Shown: positions 200 to 62,665 of the stretch, in pieces
Numbering within the stretch: the first letter of the stretch is position 1
Layout: each line of letters starts with the position of its first letter
Assembly (NCBI RefSeq): GCF_905475395.1
Contig: NC_058338.1
Span: 49,015,935 to 49,079,934, forward strand
From: Chrysoperla carnea
Lineage: Eukaryota > Arthropoda > Insecta > Neuroptera > Chrysopidae
Direction: 5' to 3'
DNA: 64,000 nt
The notes under the pieces: generated by a model
Told to the model about the DNA's origin: nothing
The model's database searches: none
Seen by the model: only the letters and a program-made list of their open reading frames with translations
Program-made: the position numbers and the translations under genes

Positions 200-4304
<4,105 letters not shown>

Positions 4305-26037: not shown

Positions 26038-26041
26038 TTAA

Positions 26042-36430: not shown

Positions 36431-36457
36431 AATGTGATAGCAAGTTGCTATCACATT
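36431..36457. repeat. Perfect 27-bp palindrome in serpin intron 1
   Basis: aATGTGATAGCAA, a single g, then TTGCTATCACATt: 13-bp perfect arms. Could form a hairpin in RNA or be a dimer-binding site; no known factor is assigned. Confidence 0.8.
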
Positions 36458-40903: not shown

Positions 40904-41057
40904 ATGGGAATGACAACAGCATTTAGTGGTGAAGCCGATTTTTCTGGATTAATTGACCCTAAAAGTGTAAGAACTAATGTCGCAATCAGTAAAGTAATTC
41001 AGAAATGCTTTATTGATGTCAATGAAGAAGGAACTGAAGCAGCTGCTGCAACAGCAG
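40904..41057 (+). CDS. Serpin constitutive exon 3, ends in the reactive-loop hinge
   Basis: Acceptor ttctag at 40898-40903; reads [35 protein letters not shown] and TEAAAATA plus one base g, then donor gtaatt. The consensus inhibitory hinge is present: Gly P15, Thr P14, Ala P12-P9. The exon stops after P7 in phase 1, so the next exon supplies everything from P6: the scissile bond, sheet-B strands 4-5 and the C-terminus. Read-through gives only a hydrophobic non-serpin tail ending at 41155, so a downstream exon must be joined. Confidence 0.93.
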
Positions 41058-42283
41058 GTAATTTTAATATTGTTATTAATTTGCTTTTATGTTTTTATGC
41101 TTTGCTTGATTTTTTCGTAATAAAATTGAAGTTTTTGCAATTTTTTGTACTCTGAATCTCCGTAACGTAATAAATAACTTTTGGAAGCAATAAAAGGTTT
41201 TCTATTAAGAATGATATAACTTTAAACTTAAACAACTTTTGTATGAGATATTATAAATTTTTTTATTTATTTTAAAGAGTATTTTATGCCAATTTGTGTG
41301 ATATTTGATATCAGCCCTATGCGATAAATACAATTGAAATCATCAACTGCTTTGTTTATGCTTACTTTTGAAATTTGGAAATTTTCTAATAAATCATTTA
41401 GTACTCAGTAGTTCAAACTGAAGCGTTGTTCGATTAGGCATGTAAGGTTGCATGATTATTTTCTCATATTAGTTGCATCGAAGTTGTGATTTCCATGTGG
41501 CTGCTATCATATATCACCATCAAATACTCAAATAAAAAAAATAAAAAGTTTTCTAATATATCATACACTAGTCTTTTAATTTAAGTTTATATTCTTCATT
41601 CTTAACGAAAAACTTTTTATATACAATAATTTTTCTATATGACTAAATACTGATAAAATAGCGCAGTAATAGTAGTAATCCTTCTCTGATAATAGCCGAG
41701 CTCAATTAGATATAAGTGTCAAAGATCCGAGCCCCAATTATAATCCAGTTTTTTGAATTAGGATAGTTTTTGTTCTGTTTTTTCTTTTGCTAATTTCAAA
41801 ATGTAATAAGAAATAAAGGGAATACAATTTTTATTTACATATATAACAAAAATTACAAAATTATTCGCTGATAATGTCAGATATTGTTATGAAGAATTTC
41901 AAAGTAAAGAAATTTTGAATACAAATTGTCGCTTATATTTTCATTCTTTATAAAATTAGTCCACAGTTCGTATTAGTCATAGTTTTATTGATTACCATAC
42001 TTTTGAAACTTCGTGTGTGAGTTAGTATTGTCTACATTTTTCATTTGAAAAAATCTTCGAAAATGCTGCATTTTCATTCTCGGAATCCTAAAAATTTTTA
42101 TATGCGTCACAACCTTCAAGTTGATTATTTACTATTGTTTTTTGTCATGGCGGGCACTGTTTTGTAAATTGTCGAGTAATATCACTTTACCATTTGCTAT
42201 TCAATTATCTTTTTAGAATAACAAAAAATTACGATTATTTATCATTTTTAAAATTTTCCAAAATAAGAATTTTTTTAAAGACG

Positions 42284-42573
42284 CTCCTGGTGGAAAAAAT
42301 ATTTGAAGAAAGAATAAGTCTTAATAAGTTTTAAAAACTCTGAAAAAGTCTCAGGAACTCTGAAAAAGTCTTAAGAACTCTGAATAACTCTAAATTTTTC
42401 AACGTTTTTGGACTGTCTAATTAGAGTTATCCAGACTTATTAAATCTGAATTAGAGGTTCAAAAACGTTGAGAAATTCAGAGTTATTCCGAGTTCCCAAG
42501 ACTTTTTCTGAGAACCTAAAACTTCTTAATTTTTAAGACCTATTCTTTCTTCAAATTTTTGTCCTACCAAGGA
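42284..42573. mobile_element. MITE of the 5096-5286 family, copy 2, in the serpin hinge-to-variant intron
   Basis: Starts ctcctggtggaaaaaatatt and tgaagaaagaataagtctta; ends tattctttcttcaaattttt and cctaccaagg. It is longer than copy 1 and its inner arms (aactctgaataactc / gagttattc-like) extend the inverted repeat. Ends are more diverged than in copy 1. Confidence 0.7.
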
Positions 42574-43463
42574 TGAAATAACGAGCGAATGAACACATCG
42601 TACAAAATTTCAGTGTCCGAACTTCAATTAATTGGTGACTCGATAATGAAGACCAGGTTTGATATTATGAATGGGATTATTTGTATATGTAGATCGAACG
42701 GAACGTTCATTTTGTTAAAAGTTTCGAAGAATAGCTGCGGTTGCCATTTAGCTAGTATTGTATGCCATTCAAAATGGCCAAAAATATTCTTTCAAATAAA
42801 GATATTAAAGATATTTCATTTAAAACTCTTTTAAGTTTAAAGTTCGGTCACTTTTAATGAAAAACCCACTATCAGACGATAACATGGATTTTTAATTTTA
42901 TTTTAATCATCTTTATAACATTAAAATTTATCTTTGAATTCAGATAATACAGGAAGGGTGGCTATAACATTTTTCTCGATGATCTCGTTTTCAGGACTCC
43001 GGTCCACTTCGAAGACTTATAAAATCTTGTATCTTTTTAAGTAGATCAAAATGAATGTTAGTATTATCAGAGAGGATATATTACGCTTTTGGGCCTCTTA
43101 AAATCGAGATAAACTAGTTGGCTAGTGCTGAGCATAAAAATTTTAAAAGTAATTTCAATTATTCATGAATTTACTTATTTCAAATTTGTATGGTTAGCAT
43201 TAGTGCCCTTGTTTAATAAACGGGGCTTGTTAATCTCGAGCAATACCGACTAATTAAATACCCGGACAATTCAAATTAAAATTATTTCTAATAACATTAG
43301 ATTTAAACTGCTTATTTTTCTTTGTATAGTTTTCAAACTTATTTTCTGAAATTGTTAATTATTCATAATTTGGTCGGGTATAAAAAAATTAGATATCACT
43401 GAAAATATTGGAAATGTGAAGTTGATAATTTTAAAAAATACGATGTCTTCTATTCTTTTCCAG

Positions 43464-43630
43464 TAAAATGTCGTAGACGAAGATGTGTAGATGAGTTTTT
43501 CTGCTTTATAGCTGATCATCCGTTTTATTTTTCTTTATTGAATGTATCATTACAAACTTCAATTTTTATTGGTTATTGTAATACTCTCCCTTCATTAGAT
43601 ATATCCCTGGAAAATGATACTGTTTATTAG
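43464..43630 (+). CDS. Serpin alternative last exon 1 (VKCRRRRC loop)
   Basis: Acceptor attcttttccag, then ta completing Val. Reads VKCRRRRCVDEFF, then FIADHPFYFSLL, TSIFIGYCNTLP and a longer tail to TAG 43628. IADHPF and FIGYC match the serpin C-terminal strands. With P6 at the first residue, P1 is Arg within four Arg in a row, suggesting trypsin-like or furin-like targets. AATAAA sits at 43636-43641, six bases after the stop. Confidence 0.85.
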
Positions 43631-44710
43631 TCACGAATAAATAATGCAAATATTATTGTGCAACAAGTGGGGTAATTGTACATAGAGCTTCGTATTCGCT
43701 CATATGAGTAATGAACAACATTAAGTGTTGCTCATAGATCGTTTTATTTATTAGAGAATAAGTACTACATAAGCGCTCGCTGTTTGAGACACGTAAATCG
43801 TTTTGCACGGTTGCATGTTAATATTAGCATAGTCCATTGAGAGTTTATTGAACGATATCGCGTTCACTAAGAGAGTACTTACCTCGCATATTTTAAAACA
43901 TAGATTTCTTATTTTTTAAATTTTGTAAAACGAACCGTTTTGGCTTGTTTTTATCCTTTTTTTAGACATTTGACATTGTAATTTTGTTGATTAATAATTT
44001 ATAAATCTAATTATTATACGATTTGCTGTTATTTTGAAAATTATTTTAACGGCTTAAAATTTCCCAACATGAAATACATTTTTTATCTTAGGGAGATTAT
44101 ATCAGTCAAATTAATAGAAAATTGACATTTAGGTATAATTTTTTTCTTTCTTGCACAACTTAAAATTTGTAGTTTTGAATAAAGCAGCGTTTAATGTTTT
44201 TCGTTTTACGTAATTTAAGTTGAGACAGAGCTGTTACCTAATCGAAAAAAAGCTTATACAAGAATAAGTTCTAAACAAATATTATAGAGTTTTAAAAAGT
44301 TGTACACCACTGTGGGACAGTCTTTTCTCAATACTGATAAGAGATAGAGGCATACTTTCAATTGAAAAAGTTGTTCTTCACAAAAAAGTTGTTCTCCTAC
44401 AACGAATAATAGCGAATACTTTCAGTAGAAATCTAAAGCAAAATTTCTTTTATTAGAAAATAACTGAAGTTAGTGGTAATAGCTTTTTTTTTTAATTATA
44501 GGTCATTTTTAGTGTCACTTGGGGTAAACTTTTATAATTTAGAGTCAAATTAATTAGGCTTTGTACTGAAACACAACTTTCCAATTTAAAGTATGCATCT
44601 TATGTCTTATCAGTAATGAGCAAACGTTGACTTTTTAAAAGGCAAACGTAAGTCCAATCACTGAGTGCTGATCCAGTACAATTTTTTTACGAGTTGCAGC
44701 TTAGTCTTAA

Positions 44711-45264
44711 GGTAGTTCCTCCGCGACCGTCCAGTCAAAAAGTTTTGGACTAATACTATCATTCAGTGCATTAACTGTGCTATGACTATTATACATATAC
44801 CATATATTATTTTGACAAGACTGTAGTTCCTCACTACTGATTCTAGTATACATATAAGCACACACACTATGACATATGCCTTTAACATTAGTCTTCATAT
44901 CTTTTCCACAAAAATCATCGCTAAAACGAGTTATTTATTTAAGTTTTTTATCGAAACTATATGGTAAATAATTTTTATTTTTATTTATATATTTTCTAAA
45001 TATAGTATTCTACATTATATTAGTTTTTCATAGAGATGGTGGACGTCATTCATTGGTAAATAAATATAATATTTGTAAATTTGTGTATTTTTATACACTT
45101 CTCCCATGTACACGTACAAATTGCGTCACTTTTAATTGCTAATATCTCATGTATGGCATGGTAAATCATCTTCTAATTTTAACAGCAAGTGTATTATGAA
45201 TTAAATATTTTATATTCTGAGTTTTGAGAAATTCTTGGAATATCACTTTCGTGTAGGTACTACC
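44711..45264. mobile_element. TTAA-flanked MITE (piggyBac-like), copy 2
   Basis: Near-identical partner of 25483-26037, bounded by TTAA at 44707-44710 and 45265-45268, lying between serpin variant exons 1 and 2. Differences are scattered substitutions and short indels in the AT runs. Confidence 0.8.
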
Positions 45265-46366
45265 TTAAGTTAAATAGGACTCTATATATTTTTCTACAGA
45301 AATATTTAGAATTAAAATATTAGTTTTGATATTTATTTTAATTTTTTGAATCTCTTGCCCGTCAAGATTTCCAGTATCTTGTTTACCTTTTGTTTTTAAA
45401 ACTGCCTACGGATGTCAAATTTGAAAAACCGAGCTTGAGGCCTACAAATTTGTAATCCGCGCTCTCAGGGTATGTAAACAAAATCTTAAGTACAATAAAT
45501 ACCTAAAGATTCTTTTTTGGGTACGTTTCTAAATACAAACCGTCATGCCAATTAGTACGATATGATTCCATCAATTTATATTGTTCAAATGTAAATTGAT
45601 GACATCATGGCGTGTTAATTAACATTATTGATTATATTTTGGAAATACAGATAAATATTTAAACTGCCTTTTAAGTATTAAAAAGATGTTAGTCGAAAAT
45701 TTTTGATTTTTTTAAAATAATATATTTTATTAGTATATTTATCAAAATTATAAGTTATTATTATTATTATTTTTGATAAAAAAAATCAAATAGTTTATCT
45801 GAAACTGAAGGTGCATGCAAATTAACATTAAAAATACAATGACTTTCTAATTATAGACTGACAATAAAGAACTTAAAAATAATTTATTGATAAAATATCT
45901 ACATATTTATATATTATACAAATTTTTTTAATTTAAATTATGTATTTTTATTGTGGACACGGAATATGATGCAAAAGTAAATAAAATGCCTTAATTAAAA
46001 TATTCACAGGATTCTAGTTTTTGTTTTTTATTTTACAATTTCCCCTATTACTTTTTAACAAGACTTGGTTCTTTTAAATAAATGCGCCATTTTAATGTTT
46101 ATGTCAATATTTTATGTAGTGATCATAATTACCAGCTCTTGAAATGTTTTCAAATGTCAAATATAGATGGCAATATAAGTCTGATAATGGTTCTGATTCT
46201 GATAATGAAGACCGAGCGTTCCGTAAACTTTGTGGTGAAAATTGACTTTTTTAAATTTCTTTGTTTGTTTGTCTGTTCTAGTCTCAATCATTTTAGCAAA
46301 GAATCTAGAATATTTTTACTATCATTATTTCAAAATTACTATCTCTATGATATTCTTGTGTTACAG

Positions 46367-46524
46367 TACGCTGTGTACGCGTGAAATGTGCTATAATTCG
46401 TCCACCAAAAATATATAAATTTACAGCGGATCATCCATTTTCCTACTTTCTCAAGCATAACAAATTAAATACAAACTTTTTTGTGGGTAGTGTTTCGAAG
46501 CCGGTTTACGTTACAAAAAATTAA
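46367..46524 (+). CDS. Serpin alternative last exon 2 (VRCVRVKC loop)
   Basis: Acceptor cttgtgttacag. Reads VRCVRVKCAIIRPPKIYKF, TADHPFSYFLKHNKL, FFVGSVSKPVYVTKN, stop at 46522-46524. TADHPF and VGSVSKP are the usual serpin s4B/s5B motifs. The loop is one residue longer than in exon 3, so aligning on KCA puts Lys at P1; counting from P6 would give Val. It is a tandem duplicate of alternative exon 3. Confidence 0.9.
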
Positions 46525-47300
46525 TTTTGTAAGTAAAATTATTTTCAAAATTGTTACTATTCCAAATCTTTTTATAATACCTATGGGGTTAACACCTTTC
46601 TAGATTTTCTAGAAAAACATACATCTTCCGTTCAGTAAATAAAAGAAATTTTGGATTATTTGTTTCATAGTCAGGTATTATTACAATTATTTGAAGGATA
46701 TTTTTTTAAATTGTGAAAAAGCTTATGGTATACAAAAGATCAAAAATTTGATATAGCATCATAATTCGGTGATATTATTAGATTAATTTAGCTATCTGCC
46801 GCTGATTTATCTCCCTACTTCCTGGAACTTAAAGGTGGCAACCCTAAATAATACAAGGTTTAATTTAAGTTTCTCGAGAAATTTTGAATTTATAAGTTTC
46901 TCTTTTTTTAAATTAATGATAACCCCGAAATCTTCCGAAAGCCGAAATTCCTTCTTTAAAACCCATGTATTCGATTTGCACAGTACTGTACAAATATTGG
47001 TTTAGGAACCCTGAGAGAGATTTTTTGTATTTCACTATAATACCATACTTTTGAGCTAAAAGTTAGATTGAACTTTCTATAGACGTTTAGTAAAATTTTC
47101 TAAAACATAATGAATAGGTAGGTACATTTAAACGCTACCAATGTAGTTAATTACACCTGTAAAATACATTTATCGCTTGGTGGCCAGAAAATCTTTAACC
47201 AAATTTTACAGAAACTAACTAATTTAGCAAAGAAACTCGAATGTTTTTTTATAATTTTAATCAAAAATTACCATATCTTTTTGATGTTCTTGTGTTACAG

Positions 47301-47455
47301 TAAGCTGTGTTTTCAAATGTGCTATAATTCGTCCACCAAAAATATATAAGTTCACAGCGGATCATCCATTTTACTGCATACTTAATCATAGCAAATTAAA
47401 TACGAAAGTTTTTGTGGGTAGTGTTTCAAAACCGGCTTATGTTACAAAAAATTAA
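47301..47455 (+). CDS. Serpin alternative last exon 3 (VSCVFKC loop)
   Basis: Acceptor cttgtgttacag, same flank as exon 2. Reads VSCVFKCAIIRPPKIYKF, TADHPFYCILNHSKL, VFVGSVSKPAYVTKN, stop 47453-47455. Predicted P1-P1' is Lys-Cys. Start-to-start distance to exon 2 is 934 bp, and both the 3' flank (gtaagtaaaattattttca) and 5' flank are shared, so the unit was copied with its intron DNA. Confidence 0.9.
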
Positions 47456-48006
47456 TTTAGTAAGTAAAATTATTTTCAAAATTTTTAATATACTTTCTAA
47501 ATCTGTCTTTAATACCTACCTACAATGATTTTTTTTTTGTCAGTCAATTCATAGCTTTTTTTATTTGATAATTAATTAAAAAAATTTTAAACTATAAAAT
47601 GAACTTACTTATCAAAATGGTAAAGATTGGTAAAATGCCAAATAATGTTGATCCTATATACAAATTGTCAGGAGGTGTAAATTTTATCAACTATATTAAA
47701 AAAAATAACTTTGAAAACAAAAAAAAAACTTAAAGAACTCTTAAAGGACTACAGCATTCTTAAAACCAAATAAGATACAGGAAATGTTTTTATAGAAAAT
47801 GTAATACACTCTGTTCTGTAGAATCACATGGCTTTCTTTTCCGTCGGAAAGTGCTGCATCTCGTGGTGGTTTTTTCTTACTTCATAAAATTATAAAAAAA
47901 AGCAATCTTAATGCTTGCGCAAAGGCTTTTGCAATACAAGTTCTTGCTATTTCATTATATGCTTTTAGTCTTTTGCAATGCGAATTTCTCAATCCATTTG
48001 TTTCAG

Positions 48007-48134
48007 ACAGAATGTTGTCGAGAAGTTTACCTATGGTTGAATATTTTATAGCTAATAGGCCATTTGTTTTTCAACTAATGAACAGATCCGCTGCAATGCC
48101 TTTGTTTATTGGATGTGTGAATCATCCTAGATAA
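48007..48134 (+). CDS. Serpin alternative last exon 4 (DRMLSRS loop)
   Basis: Acceptor ccatttgtttcag. First split codon becomes Asp, the only variant not starting with Val. Reads DRMLSRSLPMVEYFIANRPF, VFQLMNRSAAMPLFIGCVNH then PR, stop 48132-48134. The sixth and seventh residues are Arg-Ser, the classic P1-P1' of serpins against trypsin-like proteases. Confidence 0.88.
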
Positions 48135-48616
48135 AAGTTAACGTATTTTTTTCTGGTAATAATTTTTACACTTATCATTTGACTATTATTTGTATAAAAC
48201 AGTTTTGTGACCGATTAAATAACAGATTAAGGTGATTCTAAACTTTTGATGATGGAAACAAAACTGGAAGGGTCTGTGGTCCATACAGACATAGCGTAGG
48301 CGTTAAGCACTTAAAAAATTTAAGCGAAATAGTCTAAATGTTTTATATCAAATTAAATATCTTGTAGAGAAAGTATCAACAACAATTGCTATATTAAAAC
48401 ATACTGTAATATTTTTTAGTTCATAGGGTAATTGCTTTCATTTAGTTGATAAAATTACAGACAAGTGTCCGATAGCAAAATGACGAATGAAGAAAGCGCG
48501 GATTAAAGCTTCAATCGTATACTCTAAAAGCAATCACATTCATAACACATTGATAAAGACTATATGCTTGTGCCGCATTTTTCATTTTTGGTTTGTACTC
48601 ATTGGCAACATATTAA

Positions 48617-49125
48617 TCTATATATATAAAAGAAAGGCGTGTTAGTTACTCCACTTATAACTCAAGAACGGCTGAACCGATTTAGCTGAAAATTGGCAGG
48701 GAGGTAGTTTAGAGCCAGGAGAAGGACATAGGATGAAATAGGATTGACAGCATTCCCGTGTGACTTGACATGAAACGTCAGTCACTATAAAACGTGGTAT
48801 AACAAAAAAGAATCAGACTTGGAATAACAACACGCAAATGACAGCTATGTAATTGACGTATAATGACAGATATGTAATGACGTATGGATGACAATTTGAT
48901 ATTTGTAAGAAATCAATAATAAAACTATTTCTATTAAATAAATAATTAACAAATATAATGTAATGATAGTGCCATTGCCCATTCGTAAAAAGTGAAGTGA
49001 ACTTTAAAACTCGGTATGGTTGAAAATTTGAGTTTTTAGGTGAAGTGAAGTTTAATTAATAATGCCGCGACCAAGACGATCGAATATTGCCATTAAGGCG
49101 GAACAAAGTTCGCCGGGTCAGCTAG
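48617..49125 (+). mobile_element. Non-autonomous Helitron-like element
   Basis: Begins TCTATATATATAAAAGAAAG and ends with a hairpin ggcggaac-aaa-gttcgcc followed by gggtcagCTAG, inserted between A (48616) and T (49126). These are Helitron hallmarks: 5' TC, 3' hairpin just before CTRR, A/T insertion site, no target duplication. No Rep/helicase is encoded. It lies in the intron between serpin alternative exons 4 and 5. Confidence 0.75.
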
Positions 49126-49199
49126 TAGTTGCTGGTTCAAAACTTACTTGACCATTTTCTCATGTTAATTTCTTAATCCTTTTAGATTGTGTAACATCA

Positions 49200-49665
49200 C
49201 GGCTTTTATTAAATGATACATACTTGAAATTTCTTGAGTGTCCTCCTTTTGACGAGTCTGAGAAACTTTTCTCTACGATTTTTTAAGAAATGGCTGCGTT
49301 TTCACATGAGCCTATTGACGTCATATTATCGTTCTGAAAAAACCCAGCAGGAAATTTGTCGGACACTATGTCCACTTTATAATATTAATGATTATTAAAC
49401 AATAAAATATTTTGTCCGACAAAAATACTGCATCGATGAGCATTGGCTACCACTTCGAACATGCTTTAATTATTTATTTTTTTTAAATACGTACATGGTT
49501 CACTTTTGCTGAATTGTTTAATAATTATTGATGTTATCAAGTGGTTATAGTGTCCGACAAATTTCCTGCTGCGTATTTTCAAAACGATAGCTTAAAGGAA
49601 ACCACTCACGAAGTTTCAAGTATGTAGTTATGATTAAAAAAACTCGTGGTGTCCCACGGTCTATT
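49200..49665. repeat. Inverted-repeat element family, copy B (both arms)
   Basis: Left arm has atacatacttgaaatttctt and aatttgtcggacactatg; the right arm has the inverted versions (tagtgtccgacaaatttcct, gaagtttcaagtatgta) and ends gtcccacgg. Related to 22595-22850 and 59640-59905. Confidence 0.65.
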
Positions 49666-50160
49666 TATGTACACAGTAGTGACATGGTTTGCAACAAGTT
49701 GTCAATTATTTTTGAAAATTGCCTAATATTTATGAACTATTTATGCAGACCGTACTTAGCTACGGTGCAAAAAAAATTGAGCGATATTTTAGTTGAATTC
49801 TCATATTTAGATTGCACTAAATCTATGCAAAAATCAGAATTTTATAAATTCTGTATTATCAGAATATAAAAATTGTATTGCGAATAATTCTGAAACGTTT
49901 ACTTATTTAATTAGATCTTACAGCAACATAATTAAATTAAATTTGTCGATAGTGAATTATCTTTTAAGATTGGTTAAACAATGTTCTTCTAATTAACTTT
50001 TCTCTGTAGATAACTTTTCTTTACTATTTCTAAACTGCTCTGGTAAATTTGGATCGTATTGTCATAGCCTCTCGTAGATAGGTACTATTGAGTTATTATT
50101 TCTTTCATTCATCAATTATTATGTTCCATCTCTTAGTGTAGTAGTTCAAAGGTTAAGCGA

Positions 50161-50493
50161 TTCCACCTTGCATTTTGGGATACCGTAACGAAAGGTTGTA
50201 CGGTTGTTTTTTACTCACCCAAAAAATTTGCATAAAAAAGTTTTCCGAAAAAGTGAAAATTCAAAAAACATTTAAAGCAATTAAATTTGAAGAACCAAAA
50301 AATAATGTAAGTTTTGTATTTTTCACACTTTCTATAATTGAAATCAAAGGTTTTTTCGACAAAATTGGCCTCCCACTCCCCTATAGATTTTTTCAGGATC
50401 TAGAACCGTAAAAGTCGATCTTAGATCGAAAAACCGGGTCCAATTGATACCTGTATCATATTTCGTTCTGGTACTCCAAAATGCAAGGTGAAA
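50161..50493. mobile_element. MITE-like element with about 33-bp inverted ends
   Basis: Left end ttccaccttgcattttggga with taccgtaacgaaa; right end tttcgttctggtactccaaa with atgcaaggtgaaa. The 260-bp interior is AT-rich and contains only a short open frame (50175-50411) that I regard as chance. Confidence 0.7.
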
Positions 50494-50639
50494 TGCAAGT
50501 CTTTACTAATTTTTTGTATAATTGTACTAATATTTTTTGCATGTCAAATACACTTTTTTGCCGTAGCTTCAAAAAACTAATTATATAATTTATCTATTAG
50601 TAAATTTTTTTTGAATTCGCAAAAAAAAAACTTTTTTAG

Positions 50640-50782
50640 TTTGTATGATGCGTCGATCGTTGCTAGTGTTTGAAAATGAACCTATACGATTCTACGCCAA
50701 TCGTCCATTCGCTTTTCATCTTACTCAAACGTCCAAGATGGTATCATTATTTGTGGGCAGTGTTACAAAGCCTTCTTCTTAA
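50640..50782 (+). CDS. Serpin alternative last exon 5 (VCMMRRS loop)
   Basis: Acceptor aaacttttttag. Reads VCMMRRSLLVFENEPIRF, YANRPFAFHLTQTSKM, VSLFVGSVTKPSS, stop 50780-50782. ANRPF and LFVGSVTKP are standard. Residues 5-7 are Arg-Arg-Ser, so P1-P1' is Arg-Ser with a basic P2, a good trypsin-like or proprotein-convertase-like bait. Confidence 0.9.
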
Positions 50783-52184
50783 GGTACGCAAATTTTTATT
50801 ATTGTTAATTTGCTGGGTTATTATAACTTTTTCGAATTAAGGAAATATATTTTTTAAGTCTTCTAAACACTTTCTTGTTTTGCTCTTGTTTATAGGATAT
50901 ATGTATAATAATCCCGACTGTTTTCTGATCTCGATTTCTCGAATGCGATCTAATTCGACATGTTCTGTACTTTTTGATTTTAAATATAGCGTCATTTTTT
51001 TATTTAAAAAATGACGTATTATTTTTATTATTTATTGGCTGTACCCTGCCACGTTCCCTTGTGTTGTTTAACAACTGGTAAATTTTATAAAATTTGATCA
51101 ACACCCCATAGAAGAGTGCACAAATTTTAAACGGCTGAACTGATTTTCATGTAAATTACAGTTTTGTAATGTACACGTCATGCTCTTTTATTTGATACTG
51201 GTATTTTTTTTGAAAATATTTGATTGTTCATCCTCACTTCCACCCTCATATTCCCTTGCGTCGGCGGTTACAGTTTTGCTATTTACAAATCACACTCTTT
51301 TATTTGATAATCCACTTGGGTATATTCGAAAAAATTCGGTTGTTCATCTTCAGCCGCCATCCCTCATATTCCACTTTCGCCGGGGGTTAAATATAGATTT
51401 TAAAAAAATTTTGATTTTTTCGAAAACCAAAATAATTGTGTTAGTTTTTTAAACTTTTCTAATTTATTAAAAATAATGCAAACACTAACATTCAACACTT
51501 TGTATGCAGGGTATTTCAACAAGTAACTCAGTCAATTGATTGTGGTATTTCCAGTATGAATGCACTAGTCGACAAATTTGGCCTATTTTTTTCACAGACT
51601 CAAAATAATGTTAGCTGTGAGATCCCGAAGTTGCAGAATTTTTGGTCTTTTAGATTATGAGGTAATCAGCCTCAAAGTTCACGATTTTCTCATTAAAAGC
51701 ATGTAAAGCTCACTGCCCTCCCAGCTATTTTTTACGATATTAAAAAATTATTTCGACAGAATTGAAAAAAAGTAGAAGAGTTGAAAGGAGTGTTTTTAGA
51801 ATGAAATTAAAAAAAAAAATTAGAAATTAATTTTCGTTTTAGAGATATTAATTTTGACGTAAACTGATCAAAATTGGAAACTTCCAACTTAGGCATAGTT
51901 TTCTCGTGTTTTAAATGGCCAAAATTTGGGATTCGACACTTTGGGATTTAATAGTATGCCCTAATAAGTTCTTAAATTTAAATTCTCGTTATTATTCCGA
52001 ATTATGCCGAAAAAATTTTTACCATAGCTTTTGCATAAGAACTGCAAATATCGTGCTGGAAATACGTTACCTACTCTGCTCTTTTCTTCCAAATTTAATT
52101 CAAGATCCACACCAAGATTTTGTATTTGATAAATTAAAGCGTTTTTGAGGCATTATAAGACTCTATTTTTTTCGATTGTTTCAG

Positions 52185-52312
52185 TTAAAATGATAAAGAA
52201 AAAATGTATGAAATATTCTTTTATATTCTACGCAAATCAGCCATTTATATTTCAACTTATTGAAAAACAAAAAAATATTGTGTTATTTATGGGAAATGTT
52301 TTTAGTCCATGA
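52185..52312 (+). CDS. Serpin alternative last exon 6 (VKMIKKKC loop)
   Basis: Acceptor cgattgtttcag. Reads VKMIKKKCMKYSFIFYANQP, FIFQLIEKQKNIVLF, MGNVFSP, stop TGA 52310-52312. The predicted P1 is Lys inside three Lys. The tail is the minimal serpin end (GNVxxP). Confidence 0.88.
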
Positions 52313-53639
52313 TTCAAAAGGTAGGAACTTTGAAAGAGCCTTGAATGTAAAATGAAATAAATCAGTTGGTTTTCAATTTTGACCTAATAATAATTTGTGA
52401 TTTTGAATGTTTTCATACTTTGTTTACCAACTACTAATATTTTAATAACAAAATTGATTGGTTTTAATAACAAAATTTAGGCTTTTTTATTTTGATTATT
52501 GATTTTTTTATGTTTTGAATTCGTAATTCCATTTTTAATACAAATGCTTAGGGCTATAGTTTATCAATCTTTTATCTATGAGTGACATACAGGAAAATAT
52601 TATTTCTACTTTTTACTATAATAAAAGCTTGTTCTTTAAAAAGTATTTTTAGATAATAATATTTAAATATCTAAAAATAAAATATCTAAAGAAGAACATA
52701 AAGTAAATTCGTTTTGTTCAAATTGTGCCGTATGTGTAAATAGTTATAATGTCATTTCAAAAAAAATTGAAACTTCGTAATATTTTAACTGTACAGCTAC
52801 CCGTGAAAACCGTAATATTTCTTCATTTAGGAATCTTTCTGTGTGTAAATTGTCTTCTAGAACTACGAGGTTTTACTTCTCTCCTGAAGACTGTAGTTAT
52901 TGATTTCAATACGTTATTTATTTTATTAAAAGGGGAATATTTTGATTAAGTTATAGAAAAATCTCGGGAAAAACTGGATTATATATCAGAATATCTCCGA
53001 TGATTTTTTTTTAATCGAAAAAAGGTAAAACTGAGATCATAATAGATCTAGTTATTATTTATTTTACATTTAGAATGGATCTTCGTCAAGTATCGACCCA
53101 AAATAATCACAATATTATATGATCCTGGCGCAAAAACCTTCCCAATGGACAACATTATATAACAATTAATATTCGTTTTCTCAATTTTGTGATAATTTTA
53201 TTTAATATAAAGTAGAAGTTTTGAATTCAACGCTTAAGAAATTGTATCAAACAAGCAAAGATGTTTGATCTGAAGCTTTTTATTTATTTGTGCCTTTTCG
53301 CTTAGTGCAGAACCAAAATTAGCGCTGCCTAGTAGAAATATTTATACCTAAATAATACTCAACTTCACAAGGTAGGCAGGCTAATATCATTTATTTAAAT
53401 AATACTCTATTATTTTCTTATGTATAATTAAGTTGTTCCAATGTTTATGATAATTATCTTACGTGAAGAAAAATCTATAAAATAATTTTCGCTCATTCAA
53501 ATATTCTAAATACTTAGAAGTACTTTTTTTTAAATATTATTCAGTTAGTTATTTACTACGTCGCTAGCTCTGTTCTGCACTCAACCGATATGTCTTTAAA
53601 ATCTGCTCTTAAATTTTACCGAATAAAATTTTTTTACAG

Positions 53640-53788
53640 TCACACTGTTTGATTCGTTTAATTTGGAATTTGTTGCAAATAGACCGTTTTGTTTTCAATT
53701 GTTTTTCAAGAAATTTGGATGTGCCATATTTATGGGAAAATGTAACAATCCATTTCCGCAAAAAACTGAAGTTTCATATGATGTATAG
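53640..53788 (+). CDS. Serpin alternative last exon 7 (VTLFDSF loop)
   Basis: Acceptor atttttttacag. Reads VTLFDSFNLEFVANRPF, CFQLFFKKFGCAIF, MGKCNNPFPQKTEVSYDV, stop 53786-53788. P1 is Ser by count, with Asp at P2; Asp as P1 is possible if the loop is one shorter. A Cys replaces the usual Val in GKVxNP. Confidence 0.88.
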
Positions 53789-54393
53789 TCTATTCCTTAT
53801 TTAGTTGATGGATTTCTTTCACGTAAGATAGATATTTTGGATTAAAATTTTTCAATTTTTAATTATACTAAGGAGTAGTGCTCGATTTCTATACTAAGTT
53901 TCTATAGAGATACCAGTATCCTTCCTAGGGTAAGAGGATTCTAAATTTTTAGCTCGGAAGAAACAATTTTTATATTACTACAAAAAAACCCATTTTGGGG
54001 ACTGTTTAAGTTGTCTGACCATCCTAATAGATTATTGTCCAAACGAATCGCGCTCTGCAAAGAAGTTATCGACAATATTGTTTAATTTATCGAGATTAAT
54101 ATCTGTAAAAACGCATTATTGGTTAGTAATTCAAACAGTTTGTAATAAATGAATTGCTGAATTATGAAATCAGAAAATAATTCTTTTTCTCGGAATTTTA
54201 TTACGGTTATTCATAATGATATGATATCTTTGCAATTGAACTATACTTATCGCAAAATAGTAACGAGCAGTACTTCTGGTGACGCTAAAAAGTAACGAAG
54301 GAGTCGGTTCCCAACCTAAAAGGCTCTGAGTAAAAAAATTCTTACTACAAAATCGAATTTTGATAACTTTTATTTACCTATTTTCTTTTACAG

Positions 54394-54572
54394 TTCAAAT
54401 AGTTTTACTTTCGGCGAGTTTAGAACCCATATTTGCGGCAAATATACCTTTTTATTTTCAATTATGTCATGTGAAATCTGGACGTATGATATTTATTGGA
54501 AAATGCAACAACCCAATGATAGAAAATGAAAATGTATTCAACCCACAAGCTTTAAATATTCAATATTTGTAG
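54394..54572 (+). CDS. Serpin alternative last exon 8 (VQIVLLS loop)
   Basis: Acceptor ttttcttttacag. Reads VQIVLLSASLEPIFAANIPF, YFQLCHVKSGRMIF, IGKCNNP and a 19-residue extra tail to TAG 54570-54572. P1-P1' is Leu-Ser, fitting elastase- or chymotrypsin-like targets. Has the extra Cys in LCHV and GKCNNP. Confidence 0.9.
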
Positions 54573-56495
54573 ATATGTACTTTTTATGGAATTAAAAATT
54601 GCTGATTGATCGTACCAAGTTCAAGATTTTATTTTATGTTTTCAAGTTTTTATGATTTTCTCTAAACAGAAACACCACTATGTGTCTGAAATTATTGCTT
54701 AATATTTCTAGGAAAATGTTTATATTTTTATTTTTAAACGATTCCTAAAAAAATGTAAGATGCAGTAAATACGATGCTTAAAGGTTAAACCAATAAGTAT
54801 CTGATTAGCAAATTATTGTATTTATTAGATAAATTGTAATAAAATTATTTTCAAAAAATTTTCTTACTTAATAACTCTAATAATTATTTGCTACTAATTA
54901 ATTACTACTAACTTACTTAATAATTATTTTCATTTTACTGCCATTAAGCGAGAAATTTCAAATTTTGTGATTAAGAACATAATCTAGAATATAATATCTT
55001 TGGAAATATTTGATCTACATAAAACAATACATGATAAGTTGGTAAATTTCATGGCACGAGTGTTGACAATTGTCACGTTAAGGTTTTCACGTCAAGTTTT
55101 ACATTGAACGAAACCTTTGATTTCTAAATGCCATTTTGTAAATTTTCGAGTTTTATTAATAACAATGATTGTTATTTTTTCCTCGGTAGTTATTTCAAAA
55201 AGCGGAAATGTCATATTTTCTAAGTTGATAAAAATATTAATAGCTTAATATTATTATCAATGTCATTTTTGCTTACAATCATCATAAACAAAATTTTTAA
55301 GTGATTCAATCTGTGTTTGAAATGACGATTATTTGTTATTTTTGCAAACTGACATTTGATTTCACCTTGTTTTGCATTATCTCTAATTGAACCTCCTATC
55401 AGTTTGAATGTTTTATAATCCATGACTAAAAAGTCGCCGGCAAACCGTGATTTAATCATAATTGGGTAGCCAGAAAAATATTCAACAAGTAGCTCCAACT
55501 AGATTAAAAAAAGCCCAATGTGCGAATTTTATAGAGACTTTTTCCCTTCTCTTCCTGGATTATAGATTATCTTCTGGGTTGGATCTTATGGATGTATATG
55601 GACCTTTTGTTTTAGTGTTTGTGTTTTTATTACAAATGCTTAGAAAAAATGCTTACTAATAGCTAGTAGCACCAAAAAAATGTTCATAACACTTGCATGT
55701 CGAAAGCAGACTAATTCTGGAATTCTGGTGATAAGTAGCACAATTTGACAACACTGAAGATTATACAAAACATGTGTCGTCGCCTGTGTACTTGATTGCA
55801 ATTATTATTGGCTACCAGGCATAGAAGGAAAAACGTCTATAATTTTGTTTCTTTCTATCTAGTCAAGAATTCACTAGCGTTTCCTATGTCTCTACAGCTC
55901 TATGGTATTATCTCTATGATATAATCTCTAATCATTGACTCGCTGCAAAGAGTTTATGCAATTTTGCGTGTTAAAGTTCAGTAGATAATTACGAAAAATC
56001 GCTAATTGTCTTTCAGTTATTTTGCATAACGGAATTATTCGGTAAAACAACTAACAGTTATGTAAAACTTTTACATAAGTACATTGATAAGTTTAAGTTG
56101 TCTGTTTGCAGGGAGTGCTAGACGATGGAGCGTGTGTTTGATTCTTTTGTGAACAGTGCGTATAAAAGAAAGTTTTACGTCACGAATTGTTTGTTAATAT
56201 CTTTCAGAAAGCATGTTTAAATAACGCACATTCACATTATATGATTGCTATGTACGAACAAAATTTCACGCCTTGGAGAAGGAAAACAGCAAGTAATTAA
56301 TACATTTTTGAATAATGCGTAGTCGTCCAAATATTACACAGTATTCGGACTTAAAAAATGTGCCTGAATAGTCCGAATACTGAATAGTAACCGGATATTC
56401 GTTCCAACTCTATTTTATACAGTAAAGGACTTTGTAAAAAACAGAAATTCTTCTACGTAGGATCCTTTTTCACCTAAATTATTTTTTTTTTACAG

Positions 56496-56638
56496 TTGAA
56501 ATATGTACAGAATCATTATGGGATACATTGGAATACGAATTAGTAGCAAATAAAACCTTTTATTTTCAATTACGTCAAGTACCAAACGACTTTGTAATAT
56601 TTATAGGAAAATGTAACAATCCATTGCAAGGAAATTAA
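56496..56638 (+). CDS. Serpin alternative last exon 9 (VEICTES loop)
   Basis: Acceptor tttttttttacag. Reads VEICTESLWDTLEYELVANK, TFYFQLRQVPNDFV, IFIGKCNNPLQGN, stop 56636-56638. P1-P1' is Glu-Ser, an acidic bait unlike the others. Loop otherwise of normal length. Confidence 0.9.
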
Positions 56639-58130
56639 TTTTAAATTCAGAAGTATAATAGTTGCACATTTGGCTATGGAATTAATTCAATGTTACAGAT
56701 TAATCGCACAAACTGATATTTGAGTGAGTTCTTTTTTATCCCTTTATATCGTGAATTAGAATAAGAAATACTAAAGCAAAATTTCATGACATTTGTCACA
56801 AGTATGGCCGTCTTTAATTGTTCGAATTACCCGGTTATTGAAATATAAATGATTGAGTTGTGATTGACCAAAAATGTTACTAGTTCTTTTAATCATCCTC
56901 CGTTTACAACCTTACGACCAGTGCTGTGGCCATCATTTTCCTTTTAACAATTATGTAATTTGATTTATTAACGGTCGCCATAATTGTTACGAATGATTTG
57001 AATGATGTTAATATCTAAGTATAAATAAAAATTTGACGTTACTACTTCGGGATGATTTCATCTAAATTGGAACTCTTCTTTTATTTCTACTTTTGATTTT
57101 TTTTTATTTTTGAAAATCAAAATCTCAAATTTTAAAGACGGTTAAAACTCTTTAAATATTTATACATATCTATACATTTTATAAGATATAAAAGAGTCGC
57201 AATCCACATCTGTCTGCCTATTTATACACTAACTCCTTCTTCGGGATTATATTTATTCGGATGCAAGAAATGACATATGAAAAGTCGATTGTAAAACCAT
57301 GTGCGCAAAAGACAAAAAAATCATTCAAGATCAAAGGTCACTATAATAGGTATTTTTCAAATATCTCGTAAACTATTAAGTTTATGGAAGTTGTAGCTAT
57401 TATAAAACTTTTTTTTGAGTTAATTTTTCATAAAATAGTTTCTTTACAAAATTTCCGAGAAAGCAATGGTTTTCGAAATGTTTAACTGAGAAAAGTTATA
57501 GTAAGTCGCTTACTCTTTTAATAAAATTAAATATTTTTTGAAATTTTCTTACCAAATATCTTGTGAACTATTAATAGCCTATACGGACATTTTGTACTGG
57601 ACCTTTTTTTATGTAAAATTAACTCACGAATAAATTTCATAATAGCAAAAACTAACACTAAAACTGTCATAAACTTAATAGTTTACGAAAGACTTGAAAA
57701 GAACCTATTTCTGCGACGTTTGACCTTGAATAATTTCTTTTGCTCATATGATTTTTCAATGGACTTTTCGTAGGTCTTTTCTTGCATCTAAATAAAGATA
57801 AACCCGGTGAACAAATTTCGCCGATCGACCGATTATATTGTCTTTTATTTACAAGTATAACTTTCACACAAGTGTGAATTTTTAAATTTAATTATTTAAT
57901 TGTGGTGTTAAAAGTATTTTGGTCAACTTTTTTATAAAAAAATATATATGGGGATGATCGTCAAAAAATTGTGAGGACGATACATCCATACAAAATCGGG
58001 AAAATTTTAAAAATCAAAGTAATGTAGAGTAGTTTTATACTCAAATTTCAATTTTAAAGTATGAGCAGGGCCTATTAACATATTTTTTTGATAATTTTAG
58101 GAATCATAAATACCTATGTAATTGTTTCAG

Positions 58131-58258
58131 TTATGGTAATGCCTTTATGTGGCCCAAAACCTTTCAAAAAATTCTATGCAAATAAACCATTTATATTTTT
58201 GCTAAAACAAAATAAAACAAATTGTTCACTATTTTTGGGCAAAGTAAAAAATCCCTAG
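58131..58258 (+). CDS. Serpin alternative last exon 10 (VMVMPLC loop)
   Basis: Acceptor gtaattgtttcag. Reads VMVMPLCGPKPFKKF, YANKPFIFLLKQNKTN, CSLFLGKVKNP, stop TAG 58256-58258. P2-P1-P1' is Pro-Leu-Cys. Retains the standard GKVKNP end. Confidence 0.9.
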
Positions 58259-58971
58259 TATCAGGTATGCATTGTGTACTTTTATTATATTTTTCCACTT
58301 GTACACGCACGCACCCACACCAAAAACCATACTCATTACGCACTCACGTCACTTACTATAGACTTTTTGTTAACTGTATCGCTAGTAATTCTATTATTTC
58401 GTCGGAAAAATTATTTGTTTTGGCACAATAACGTTTACTGAATTAAAAATATTCTCCACCCAAAAAGTTCGTTTTGCAATATTCTCTGTATTCAAAAGGA
58501 GTTCATATAAAACCACTGATCTCTCTATAACTGGATAGAATATCAATATGGCGTAAAATAAAATTAATGGCGTAAAACCATTCGGTGTATGCGCGATTAT
58601 AATCGTCATATAGAGATCTCTATATTTTTATTTTAGTTCCAGCCACTTATTTGGTGGCGCTAATACGAGTATATATCTTTATATCTCATTCAGAGGATCT
58701 ATATGTTATATATCTATGTACAAAACTAAAATACAAGTTTGAGTCTATATTTATTGCTTGATGGCAAGATTGTGTTCGTAAAATTGGGAATTCAACGTGT
58801 ATTTTCATGTACTTTATCTCCGTGCTAAATGTTTGTAGAAATGCTTTTATTTTTGCTTTCTGACATAAAATGTAGTAGCTCTGGAAAAATCTGTCTGTGA
58901 TGTCCGGTCCGTCATTAATAGTTAAAAATATATTATATTATATTATTAAAAAATATTTTTCTTTTTTGCAG

Positions 58972-59114
58972 TCGTCATGATGCGCTTATGTGCTGTTGTG
59001 TATGATATACCCAAGGTTTATGCAAACAAACCGTTCCACTTTCAACTTTTACATCGACCTTCAAAATGTCCATTATTTACTGGAAAATGTAACAATCCCA
59101 CTTCAAATTCATAA
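58972..59114 (+). CDS. Serpin alternative last exon 11 (VVMMRLC loop)
   Basis: Acceptor ttcttttttgcag. Reads VVMMRLCAVVYDIPKVYANK, PFHFQLLHRPSKCPLF, TGKCNNPTSNS, stop 59112-59114. P1-P1' Leu-Cys (Arg at P2). Very close to exons 12 and 13. Polyadenylation signal AATAAA at 59170-59175 within aataaatgcacaatgtttt. Confidence 0.92.
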
Positions 59115-59639
59115 AAAAATTATTTAAATTTGTTACTAACTGCTTTTATATTACAAATTATTATTAATTAATAAATGCACAATGTTTTGTTGAAATTGGT
59201 ATTCTTTTATTTTTGATACTACCATGAATTTGTTATGGAATATTATAAAGTTGAGATACATCTCCAAAAGCATACAAATTGCAACGGTTTATTTTTTTTT
59301 CTTTAGAGCACTAGAGTTAATGAGCTCTGGCCTACCTTAAGATTTAACGGAATTAGAAAAAAATAGACCCGGAAAAAATAGACGAAAAAAATTTCTGTAA
59401 TAGTGTCCCACTTTTGAACACAAGGGCTAAAAACTTCATAACCCAACCAATTCCTCTATAGTCGACAAACTCAATCCAACCAACTCGTAATTACAACAAT
59501 ACTCCGGGTCTATAAAATTTTCGGTCTATTTTTCCCGGATCTCTTTTCTTCGATTACCAATTGGGCTTCAGTTATTCAGCCTGACTCTAGGCCCCATTAA
59601 TTGTTTTTAAAGATTTGTTCTGATAATTTCTTTATTTCG

Positions 59640-59905
59640 TTAATTAAAGAGTGGATTCTATTAGCTCAGACCACGTATCCATCATTAAGGTTATCAAGTG
59701 GTCATAGTGTCCACAAATTCTATGCCGGGTTTTTTCAGACTAATAGCTTAAATATGACGTTATCGTGCTCAATTGAAAACGCAGCATTTTCGAAAATAGT
59801 CGTAGAGACCAGTTTGGTAGACTCGCCAAAAGGAAGCCATTCAGCAAGTATGTATTAATCATTTCACATAGCACCCTTCTGTCCCACGGCCTCTTTGTTA
59901 TTATA
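59640..59905 (+). repeat. Inverted-repeat element family, copy C
   Basis: Reverse-oriented relative of 22595-22850: contains atcaagtggtcatagtgtcc, ttatcgtgctcaattgaaaa, gactcgccaaaaggaagcca and gcacccttctgtcccacgg. Lies between serpin variant exons 11 and 12; the open frame at 59601-59858 is its by-product. Confidence 0.65.
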
Positions 59906-60116
59906 CCGTTTTGAACTTATCATAACCTTACACATAATAATTTTCATTTTCCTTGGTCTATGAGTAGTGGATGTGTAAGTTTAAAACTTAGTCGTTATTC
60001 TTCTTCTAGCCCACGCCCCTGTTCGAGTTTTGAGAAAATATCAGCCCTAGTTACTCATTCCTATAATTTTCAAGAAAAATATTTTATCTCAATAAAATAT
60101 ATTTTTTCTTTTGCAG

Positions 60117-60268
60117 TCTCAATGGTGACCTACTGTGCTCTTGTGTTTGATATACCTAACTTTTATGCAAATAATCCATTTCAATTTCAACTTTTTCATC
60201 GTCCATCAAAGTGTCCATTATTTACTGGAAGGTGTAACAATCCCACTGGAAATTCTGGAAATTTATAA
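60117..60268 (+). CDS. Serpin alternative last exon 12 (VSMVTYC loop)
   Basis: Acceptor tttttcttttgcag. Reads VSMVTYCALVFDIPNFYANN, PFQFQLFHRPSKCPLF, TGRCNNPTGNSGNL, stop 60266-60268. P1-P1' is Tyr-Cys, pointing to chymotrypsin-like targets. AATAAA at 60283-60288 in aataaatgcactatatttt. Confidence 0.92.
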
Positions 60269-60869
60269 AAAAAATTTTAACTAATAAATGCACTATATTT
60301 TTTTGGAATTGGCTCTTTTATTATTTAATAACTCCTTGAATTTTCATGGATTTTAAATTTCAGGAATGCAGGGTTGACGAAATGTTTCAGAAACTAAAAC
60401 TAAACATTAGTTTGCGATATTGTATAGTAAAAAATTGGAAATAAAAATATTTTATTGAAAATTTTGGTTTTCTCAAAGGATAATAGATCTTAGCTACAGT
60501 TGTTGATGGCTGCCCTGGCCTACTTTAAGATATCTTCATTTTGTTTGTAATATTAACAGACTTCACTTGTTTCTCTTCGCCTTTGGTATTAGAATTTTTT
60601 GAGAATTTGTTTTTTATTTTTATTTTTTTTATTTCTTGACTAATTATATTTTGTTTTAATATATATCTCTTCGATTTATTTACTGGACCTGTGATAGATT
60701 TGTAATGTAGATTTGCTTGATTTGTGAAGTCGATAAATGCCGAAGTTTAAGATCTGCACGATGCCGCTATCCAAAGTCTTTACATTCTACGTTCTATTAT
60801 TTCTTTGGATAAACTGCTTATCTAAACTACATAAAAAATAAATTATTTAAATATAAAAATTTTTTTCAG

Positions 60870-61012
60870 TTGTTATGGTGGCTTGTTGTGCTGTTGTGTA
60901 TGATATACCCCAGTTTTATGCAAATAAATCGTTCCACTTTCAACTTTTTCATCGGCCATCAAAATGCCCATTATTTACTGGAAGATGTTCCAATCCCACT
61001 TCAAATTCATAA
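60870..61012 (+). CDS. Serpin alternative last exon 13 (VVMVACC loop)
   Basis: Acceptor aatttttttcag. Reads VVMVACCAVVYDIPQFYANK, SFHFQLFHRPSKCPLF, TGRCSNPTSNS, stop 61010-61012. Cys-Cys at P1-P1'. Pro of the ANKPF motif is Ser here. AATAAA at 61089-61094. Confidence 0.92.
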
Positions 61013-62103
61013 AAAAATTATTTACGTTTGATTCTAACTGCTTATTTATATTGCTTGACTTTAATTTTCGTGTAAAAATATATTTACCAATAAATTCACT
61101 ATATTTTGTTTAAATTAAGTGTTTTTGCTTGACTCCTTTTACTCCCCCCAGGATTGTTTTTTGTTTTATGGTGTAATGTACCATCAATTTGCATACACCT
61201 TAGTCCATTCTCTAATTTCTTGGCGGATAGTAATGTTCATGAGATAGCAAATATATGGAAACAAAGTTTAGTTATTAGAAGGAAACCAACTTAGAGACTG
61301 ATTGTCCTACTTATTGATTCCATTGCGATATTTACAAAAATGGCTCTAAAAAACAGAAATGTAGGTTTTGATTCTAGGTACTACTTCTTTTATATCTTGT
61401 TGAATTTTTTTGGTTGATCTATGTTCCTTCATTAATCATTTTCTTAGAAATTTTTCTTTCATAAATATCGATATGTTTTCCTATTAGAGCTGCTAGTATT
61501 ATGCTTCGTTCGTATAACTTATCCCACCAATAACAATATACAGTGTCTCTGAAAAATTGCACAACGCTCTACTACATATATTACAAGAAAAAGGTCGGAT
61601 TTTTTTATTTTAAATTTGGCACGGAAGCACTGTTTTACCAGACACGTAAACCCCATGTAAAAATTAAGATTAATATCAACTCATTTACGTAGAATTCGGG
61701 AGGGTGTCTTTGTACTAAAACCCTCAAATTTCTGCGCCAAAGGAAGTAAAGGACTGTGAGTATAAAATTTAGATTAAGTAAGTTGTTTACTCCAAAAAGT
61801 ACTTGGCACCACTCAATTTACCCTCGTGGCTAAGCCACTTTGCAGTAAAGTAAATGATGCTACACCAACTTATCTTAAGAAATGTCATAAATGGTAGAAC
61901 GTTATCCATGCTTTTTAGGTCACTCTGTGCATGTATGATTTTCATTTCACTAGATCTGTGAAGTAGAAACATGTCAAGGTTTAATGCACGTTTGATTTCT
62001 CTCTCCTTACTTTTTTCTCTTCTCTAGCTCTGGAAATATGTCGTTTTAACTTAAAATAAAATTAAAAAATTTGTTTCGTAAAAATATTTTTTCCTTTTTG
62101 CAG

Positions 62104-62243
62104 TCGTGATGCAGGACTGTTGTATTGAGACATTCGGCATACCCGATTTTTATGCAAATAAACCGTTCCAATTTCAACTTTTACATCGACGATCAAAATG
62201 TTCTTTGTTGACTGGAAAATGTTTTAATGTTCCCCTAAATTAA
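62104..62243 (+). CDS. Serpin alternative last exon 14 (VVMQDCC loop)
   Basis: Acceptor tcctttttgcag. Reads VVMQDCCIETFGIPDFYANK, PFQFQLLHRRSKCSLL, TGKCFNVPLN, stop 62241-62243. P2-P1-P1' Asp-Cys-Cys. AATAAA at 62308-62313. Confidence 0.92.
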
Positions 62244-62531
62244 AATAAAATGTATTGGCACTGTGATTAATTGATTTAAAAAATTTTTTTGTTAAAAGTT
62301 ATTAACTAATAAATCCTCTATATTTTATTGAATATTGTCTTTTTTATTATTTTATTCGTTGAATTTCACAATTGCAAAACAAATATTTTGATAGAAGTCT
62401 AAATTTTATTCACGATTAGAGCCTCCAGGCGTTAATGTTTTCGTTGGAGTGGAGGTGAACACATTTTAGTTGATTTAAGAAAGAAAAATGTGATATTTTT
62501 GTTTATGGATTTTTTTGTTTGTCTTTTTCAG

Positions 62532-62665
62532 TAACCATGATGCTCTGTTCTGCTCCAATGTACCGTACACCACGTTTTTATGCAAATAAACCGTTCCAGT
62601 TTCAATTGTGTCATCGACCATCAAAATCCTCATTGTTCGCTGGAAGATGTGCTTATCCATGTTAA
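62532..62665 (+). CDS. Serpin alternative last exon 15 (VTMMLCS loop)
   Basis: Acceptor tgtctttttcag. Reads VTMMLCSAPMYRTPRFYANK, PFQFQLCHRPSKSSLF, AGRCAYPC, stop 62663-62665. P1-P1' Cys-Ser with Leu at P2. AATAAA at 62742-62747 in aataaataaatgcacaat. Last variant seen before the window ends; a further one outside cannot be excluded. Confidence 0.92.

Follow-up and report, generated by a model that had tools for sequence, protein, structure and literature searches.

A serpin gene on chromosome 2 of Chrysoperla carnea, lying on the plus strand of the 64,000-nucleotide stretch analysed here (the window) and called gene 1 below, consists of three core exons followed by fifteen loop exons, and its pre-mRNA is almost certainly spliced from the end of exon 3 (position 41057, after residue P7 of the hinge) to one of these fifteen. 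Each mRNA would then encode the same serpin body with a different reactive-centre loop (RCL), presumably aimed at a different protease target. We propose that the distal loop exons would be last exons in the strict sense, each bringing its own poly(A) signal, and that at least three, probably five, of the upstream ones would be spliced from a donor placed after the stop codon to a later 3' untranslated region (UTR), which might be a downstream loop exon used as UTR. An earlier interpretation made from the letters without database searches (the sequence-only reading) had already proposed one body with many alternative reactive-centre exons, and the phase, the single body and the profile evidence described below make this the best reading of the locus.

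The three core exons are listed here, with a slash at the exon end in each donor.

35953..36021, plus strand: exon 1, with the start codon and the N-terminus MATSKDIGTVVEANNKFGYDVYK, donor AAA/GTAAGC, without a signal peptide.
39181..39966, plus strand: exon 2, main serpin body, open frame, donor GAA/GTAAGT, matched by Pfam Serpin when spliced.
40904..41057, plus strand: exon 3, end of the body up to the hinge, ending in phase 1, donor CAG/GTAATT.

Exon 1 was the sole match in a motif scan of positions 25200-39180 for an exon-1-like end in phase 0, and the donors of the three body exons score 7.4 to 8.6 (all donor scores given here come from an approximate matrix). When the body is joined to the loop exon at 50640 (we name loop exons by the position of their acceptor), the product has a full-length serpin fold, as it matches Pfam Serpin (PF00079) over profile positions 1-370 of 370 with 339.8 bits at a cut-off of 27. 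Five loop exons compared with Pfam singly also had Serpin as their best match, yet at 11.9 to 26 bits. Among the sequences of solved structures, engineered conserpins rank first, and the best natural relative is Drosophila serpin 4 isoform B (4p0f), that is, Spn42Da. The hinge in exon 3 agrees with the inhibitory consensus E[EKR]G[TS]x[AGS]4 followed by [TS] at P8 (consensus from PMC2770083), and by this hinge the product of gene 1 is predicted to be a serpin of the inhibitory type. Exon 3 does end after P7 in phase 1 at 41057, as had been claimed, and the junction there, ACA GCA G/GT, corresponds to the hinge-end position +1 with G that is usual for insect multi-RCL genes. About 50 nt 5' of the serpin ATG, at 35902-35906, there is a TCAGT, an arthropod initiator-like motif whose position fits a transcription start in exon 1; a single match near the ATG is not unlikely by chance.

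The loop exons are given below in their order along the array. Loops are written from their first residue, which is counted as P6, and P1 and P1' follow from this count; because loop lengths vary, the assignment of P1 may be off by about one residue in some exons, 46367 included. The bits are scores from leave-one-out profiles.

43464..43630, plus strand: RCL exon 1, loop VKCRRRRCV (furin-like), AATAAA at +6 after the stop, 39.6 bits.
46367..46524, plus strand: RCL exon 2, loop VRCVRVKCA, donor-like GTAAGT at 46529, 49.2 bits.
47301..47455, plus strand: RCL exon 3, a duplicate of exon 2, loop VSCVFKCAI, donor-like GTAAGT at 47460, 45.5 bits.
48007..48134, plus strand: RCL exon 4, loop DRMLSRSLP, P1 Arg and P1' Ser by count, 38.1 bits.
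50640..50782, plus strand: RCL exon 5, loop VCMMRRSLL, P1 Arg, donor-like AAG/GTACGC at 50784, 41.5 bits.
52185..52312, plus strand: RCL exon 6, loop VKMIKKKCM, donor-like AAG/GTAGGA at 52321, AATAAA at +44, 40.5 bits.
53640..53788, plus strand: RCL exon 7, loop VTLFDSFNL, 40.9 bits.
54394..54572, plus strand: RCL exon 8, loop VQIVLLSAS, P1 Leu by count, 50.1 bits.
56496..56638, plus strand: RCL exon 9, loop VEICTESLW, P1 Glu by count, 42.6 bits.
58131..58258, plus strand: RCL exon 10, loop VMVMPLCGP, P1 Leu and P1' Cys by count, donor-like CAG/GTATGC at 58265, 48.4 bits.
58972..59114, plus strand: RCL exon 11, loop VVMMRLCAV, poly(A)-like block at 59170, 82.6 bits.
60117..60268, plus strand: RCL exon 12, loop VSMVTYCAL, poly(A)-like block at 60283, 74.1 bits.
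60870..61012, plus strand: RCL exon 13, loop VVMVACCAV, poly(A)-like block at 61089, 79.7 bits.
62104..62243, plus strand: RCL exon 14, loop VVMQDCCIE, poly(A)-like block at 62308, 59.9 bits.
62532..62665, plus strand: RCL exon 15, loop VTMMLCSAP, poly(A)-like block at 62746 overlapping an AATAAA at 62742, 60.6 bits.

The fifteen acceptors that the sequence-only reading had assigned are all correct, fourteen of them ending in CAG and one in TAG, and its further claims, that the split codon is completed as Val in 14/15 exons and as Asp in 1/15 and that every exon has a stop of its own, were borne out as well, each exon being open to its stop and encoding 42 to 59 residues. The pyrimidine fraction 5' of the acceptors averages 0.70, compared with 0.52 at the 959 AGs of the region. 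Leave-one-out profiles, run against the six-frame translation of the window, recovered 15/15 exons at 38.1 to 82.6 bits, and the chance level, taken as the best score over 30 Markov-shuffled windows, was 16.0 bits. A search for a sixteenth loop exon with the profile of all fifteen found nothing further above 11.0 bits on either strand of the window, and over the 30 kb of chromosome that follow it no score exceeded 6.9 bits; within the reach of this profile the array is thus fifteen exons long. It might be supposed that the loop exons belong to separate serpin genes, each with its own core exons. This was checked by tblastn of the window with the body, which found a single serpin body, one further chance match (E 3.1) and no body between the loop exons, so that separate bodies are not borne out within the window. 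One body followed by at least two in-phase loop exons marks a multi-RCL gene, and here there are fifteen such exons.

A further question is whether all these exons are in use, as one could also imagine that few of the fifteen are spliced in and the remainder are dying duplicates. Some of them do look odd: 53640 has a short loop, four exons have no clear 3'-end signal, and 62104 ends in CFNVPLN in place of the CNNP or CSNP of its relatives. The selection test covered the five distal exons (58972, 60117, 60870, 62104 and 62532) and, beyond them, counts for the pair 46367/47301 only. For the strand and C-terminal part of the five distal paralogs (10 pairs), the pooled nonsynonymous divergence (pN) was 0.132 and the synonymous divergence (pS) 0.394, with a bootstrap interval of pN minus pS from -0.415 to -0.123, which excludes zero. 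This part of the exons is under purifying selection, and the distal five have thus been maintained as coding sequence. The loops vary more freely (pN 0.365 versus pS 0.513, with a bootstrap interval that spans zero), so that loop divergence in the distal five is not clearly constrained, which would suit the idea of decay. Positive selection in the loops was considered too and is not shown: pooled pN is below pS there as well and the interval includes zero. Decay of most of the array is, however, difficult to reconcile with purifying selection on the strand region of five recent duplicates and with the preservation of phase, acceptor and open frame in 15/15 exons; nor did the window contain any degenerate loop exon above 11.0 bits, although frameshifted remnants were not searched for specially. 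We therefore regard a largely disused array as quite improbable and retain the reading of one gene with fifteen alternative loop exons.

By the count used above, P1 is Arg or Lys in 5/15 loops (43464, 47301, 48007, 50640 and 52185), and in the remaining ten it is Val, Ser, Leu (3), Glu, Tyr or Cys (3). The sequence-only reading had considered the loops to be unlike known ones. This goes too far for the proximal RRRR loop, which is near the RRKR furin-type loop of Spn42Da (PMC4006314), and the set is therefore not wholly unlike those known.

How the fifteen exons end is a separate matter. On balance we favour the view that gene 1 mixes two 3'-end modes, some upstream exons being spliced on to something further 3' and the distal exons being terminated by poly(A) signals. 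They had been described as fifteen alternative last exons, and this description seems to suit the distal five and probably 43464, but five donor-bearing exons look internal instead. In these five (46367, 47301, 50640, 52185 and 58131) a donor-like GTANG stands within 14 nt after the stop codon, namely 1 to 8 nt past it, and it is this site that gives them the appearance of internal exons; the same was found at 29/1445 control stops (p 8e-6; control rate 1.7 to 2.0%). Three of the sites score as strong donors, 9.3 to 10.3, and a score of 9 is reached by 0.6% of 4281 control stops. There is no AATAAA or ATTAAA within 500 nt 3' of 50640. In the pair 46367/47301 the synonymous divergence is about 0.26 to 0.30, whereas the 28 nt past the stop contain one difference (p 0.0012 at a synonymous rate of 0.28, for a stretch picked after the alignment was seen). 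The five distal exons, for their part, share the block AATAAATNCNCWATRTTTT at 59170, 60283, 61089, 62308 and 62746 (5/5). Over the whole array, 8/15 exons have an AATAAA within 120 nt of the stop, the rate at 1317 control stops being 18.4% (p 0.0024), although this test overstates independence, because the five distal exons are relatives.

That last figure would also be in keeping with a simpler arrangement, implied by the sequence-only reading, in which all fifteen are plain alternative last exons, each with a poly(A) site of its own, and in a second serpin array of the same genome (gene 2, described below) 0/14 loop exons have a GTANG in the 14 nt past the stop. Still, such an arrangement leaves aside the occurrence of GTANG in 5/15 exons when controls show 2%, the 500 nt past 50640 with neither hexamer, and the conservation past the stops of 46367 and 47301, and for these reasons we consider it unlikely.

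Two modes of 3' end are themselves not free of difficulties. Only 3/5 of the donor-like sites score like real donors, whereas those of 46367 (4.1) and 47301 (4.4) fall below the donors of the body exons because their exon-side bases are poor. The two classes also overlap: an AATAAA accompanies the donor-like site of 52185, and another stands at +114 in the case of 46367. Donor-like sites occur farther on as well, perhaps by chance (one of 9.6 lies 40-200 nt past 53640). A looser version of the poly(A) pattern also matches the unrelated positions 18656 and 36890, both without the AATAAATNCNCWATRTTTT form, and the five distal exons, being paralogs, are not independent counts. At 48007, 53640, 54394 and 56496 both signals are lacking, GTANG from the 14 nt and AATAAA from the 120 nt past the stop, and these four exons could belong to either mode. 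In Manduca sexta serpin-1 the exon 9 copies precede a common exon 10; the 3'-end modes of gene 1 look mixed instead, with GTANG past the stop in 5/15 exons and a strong donor score in 3/15, where the Manduca type would have a donor past the stop of each loop exon. Finally, exclusive choice among the exons is left without docking or selector pairing to explain it: when the intron that follows exon 3 was compared with the regions 5' of the fifteen exons, Dscam-like pairing was not above that in 60 control sets, the fractions of controls reaching the observed values being 0.65 and 0.35.

Gene 2 is a second multi-loop serpin gene on the same chromosome (chr2 21.845-21.866 Mb), 27 Mb away from gene 1. 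Its first exon, at 21845437, encodes a clear signal peptide, its body is 38% identical to that of gene 1, and its third exon ends at the identical phase-1 point of the hinge. There are 14 candidate loop exons, from 21849967 to about 21866364, for most of which the acceptor was chosen among several possible ones. With the gene 1 profile, 12/14 of them exceed the best shuffled window (16.0 bits), and those at 21860102 (15.9 bits) and 21864570 (10.6 bits) are less certain. As mentioned, none of the 14 has GTANG just after its stop, and AATAAA is present within 120 nt in 7/14, the rate among 822 controls being 26% (p 0.047). When all 29 loop exons were placed in a FastTree tree, those of gene 1 clustered together with a support of 0.892, many of the inner supports being low. 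By its signal peptide, gene 2 would supply a secreted set of inhibitors. A third serpin, at chr2 ~2.186 Mb (2185600-2187200, minus strand), has the same phase-1 hinge intron, which is short there, well under 100 bp; 16 kb were examined at this locus and yielded a single loop exon. Of the loop exons of gene 1, a Pfam search across the genome lists just 1/15, so further arrays elsewhere could have been missed. No title or abstract among the literature matches listed describes two serpin arrays in C. carnea, which is weak evidence of absence.

We consider it fairly probable that the product of gene 1 is cytosolic, because its loops are rich in cysteine and no usable signal-peptide exon was found. 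The N-terminus reads MATSKDIG. Between 25.2 kb and exon 2, a stricter scan for hydrophobicity plus donor detected no signal-peptide exon, and a looser scan of the same stretch gave three matches, none usable, as one is in the wrong phase, one is in the wrong phase and also 3' of exon 1, and one lies inside exon 2. The scan is crude, yet it recovers the signal exon of gene 2 (among five matches in 10 kb). Cysteine makes up 39/720 residues of the loop exons in gene 1 versus 4/639 in gene 2, and it occurs within the first nine loop residues in 12/15 versus 0/14 exons (Fisher p 1e-5, weakened because the exons are related); the bodies contain 3/336 and 0/~330, respectively. Free cysteines suit the reducing environment of the cytosol, and Cys at P1' occurs in human clade B intracellular serpins. 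On the other side, the secretory pathway would be the more natural place for an RRRR loop, which is awkward in the cytosol, and a scan of the whole upstream region gave six weak signal-exon-like matches, all at or before 21.6 kb, which is 5' of a match to Sec62.

An undetected or distant signal exon, if there is one, would make gene 1 a dual-compartment gene as in Drosophila. One may go further and suppose that gene 1, so equipped, is the venom serpin gene of this species: the available text of PMC12758981 reports, from long reads and proteomics, many C. carnea venom serpin isoforms derived from one alternatively spliced gene, whose locus is not identifiable from that text. The furin-like proximal loop and the weak matches far upstream would agree with this, as would the fact that both Spn42Da and Pteromalus puparum PpSerpin-1 have secreted as well as intracellular N-terminal forms. 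Against it stand the cysteine-rich loops and the outcome of a scan which, although able to detect the signal exon of gene 2, gave nothing usable between 25.2 kb and exon 2. Moreover, gene 2, because of its signal peptide, is at least as likely a venom gene as gene 1. A dual-compartment gene 1 that encodes the venom serpins thus seems doubtful to us, and a cytosolic product remains the reading that we prefer.

Serpins with multiple loops are commonplace and already known in insects, and gene 1 adds a case. In a survey of insects (PMC10513286), 192 genes with alternative C-termini are counted, 161 of them spliced at +1, and secreted, intracellular and dual genes all occur; the mean is 7.32 proteins per alternatively spliced gene, with 21 forms in Pteromalus puparum and 20 in Leptopilina heterotoma. 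The claim that fifteen is at the high end holds in so far as it is well above this mean, but the number is below those of the two wasps. PpSerpin-1 of P. puparum combines its 21 C-terminal forms with secreted and intracellular N-termini (PMC10513286), whereas gene 1 has 15 ends and, as far as found, an intracellular start only. The comparison with Manduca sexta serpin-1 drawn in the sequence-only reading is apt, since the loop is encoded there by alternative copies of exon 9 (PMC1761132), although its twelve variants are fewer than the fifteen of gene 1. Drosophila melanogaster Spn42Da (Spn4), besides being the closest natural relative of the body with a solved structure, also has alternative loop exons, and a furin-type exon comes first in both arrays, exon 5 before exons 6-8 in Spn42Da (PMC2770083) and the proximal VKCRRRRC in gene 1. 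It differs from gene 1 in having four loop exons and forms with and without a signal peptide (PMC4006314, PMC2770083).

The remainder of the window contains several other features. The intron after exon 3 contains, at 42290-42570, a pair of approximately palindromic arms with many AACTCTGAAAAAGTCT-like repeats, noticed by eye and in part listed as tandem repeats, which may be a small mobile element. A tandem array 5' of the serpin gene, at 30116-32598, repeats a 305-bp unit about eight times with 98% matches. The Sec62 match lies at 24263-24451 on the plus strand, and the open reading frame at 21615-22022, also on the plus strand, presumably resembles the start of Sec62, Pfam having given no Sec62 match there. 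Pieces of a neighbouring gene at 197-550 and 2601-3122 on the minus strand match a MYST acetyltransferase (MOZ_SAS, zf-MYST), which we take to be Tip60-like. Scans of the window for tRNA genes and Rfam families gave no matches.

What this analysis adds to the known design is the secreted sister gene, together with the apparent mixture of 3' ends and the probable cytosolic location of gene 1. A tentative idea, which we put forward with some reserve, is that the usual dual-compartment multi-loop serpin may have been split over two genes in the lacewing. The secreted gene would have about 14 loops; its cytosolic counterpart would have 15, with cysteine-bearing loops and a mixed 3' architecture, the early loop exons using later ones as their 3' UTR and the last ones ending at poly(A) sites of their own. 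The coexistence of donor-bearing and poly(A)-bearing exons would make the mechanism of exon choice testable with Iso-Seq reads that, according to PMC12758981, already exist under PRJNA731104. Gene 1 is a clean example of protein diversity generated by exon duplication at one functional site, and together with its secreted sister it would form a natural pair for asking how the cellular compartment shapes reactive-centre loops.

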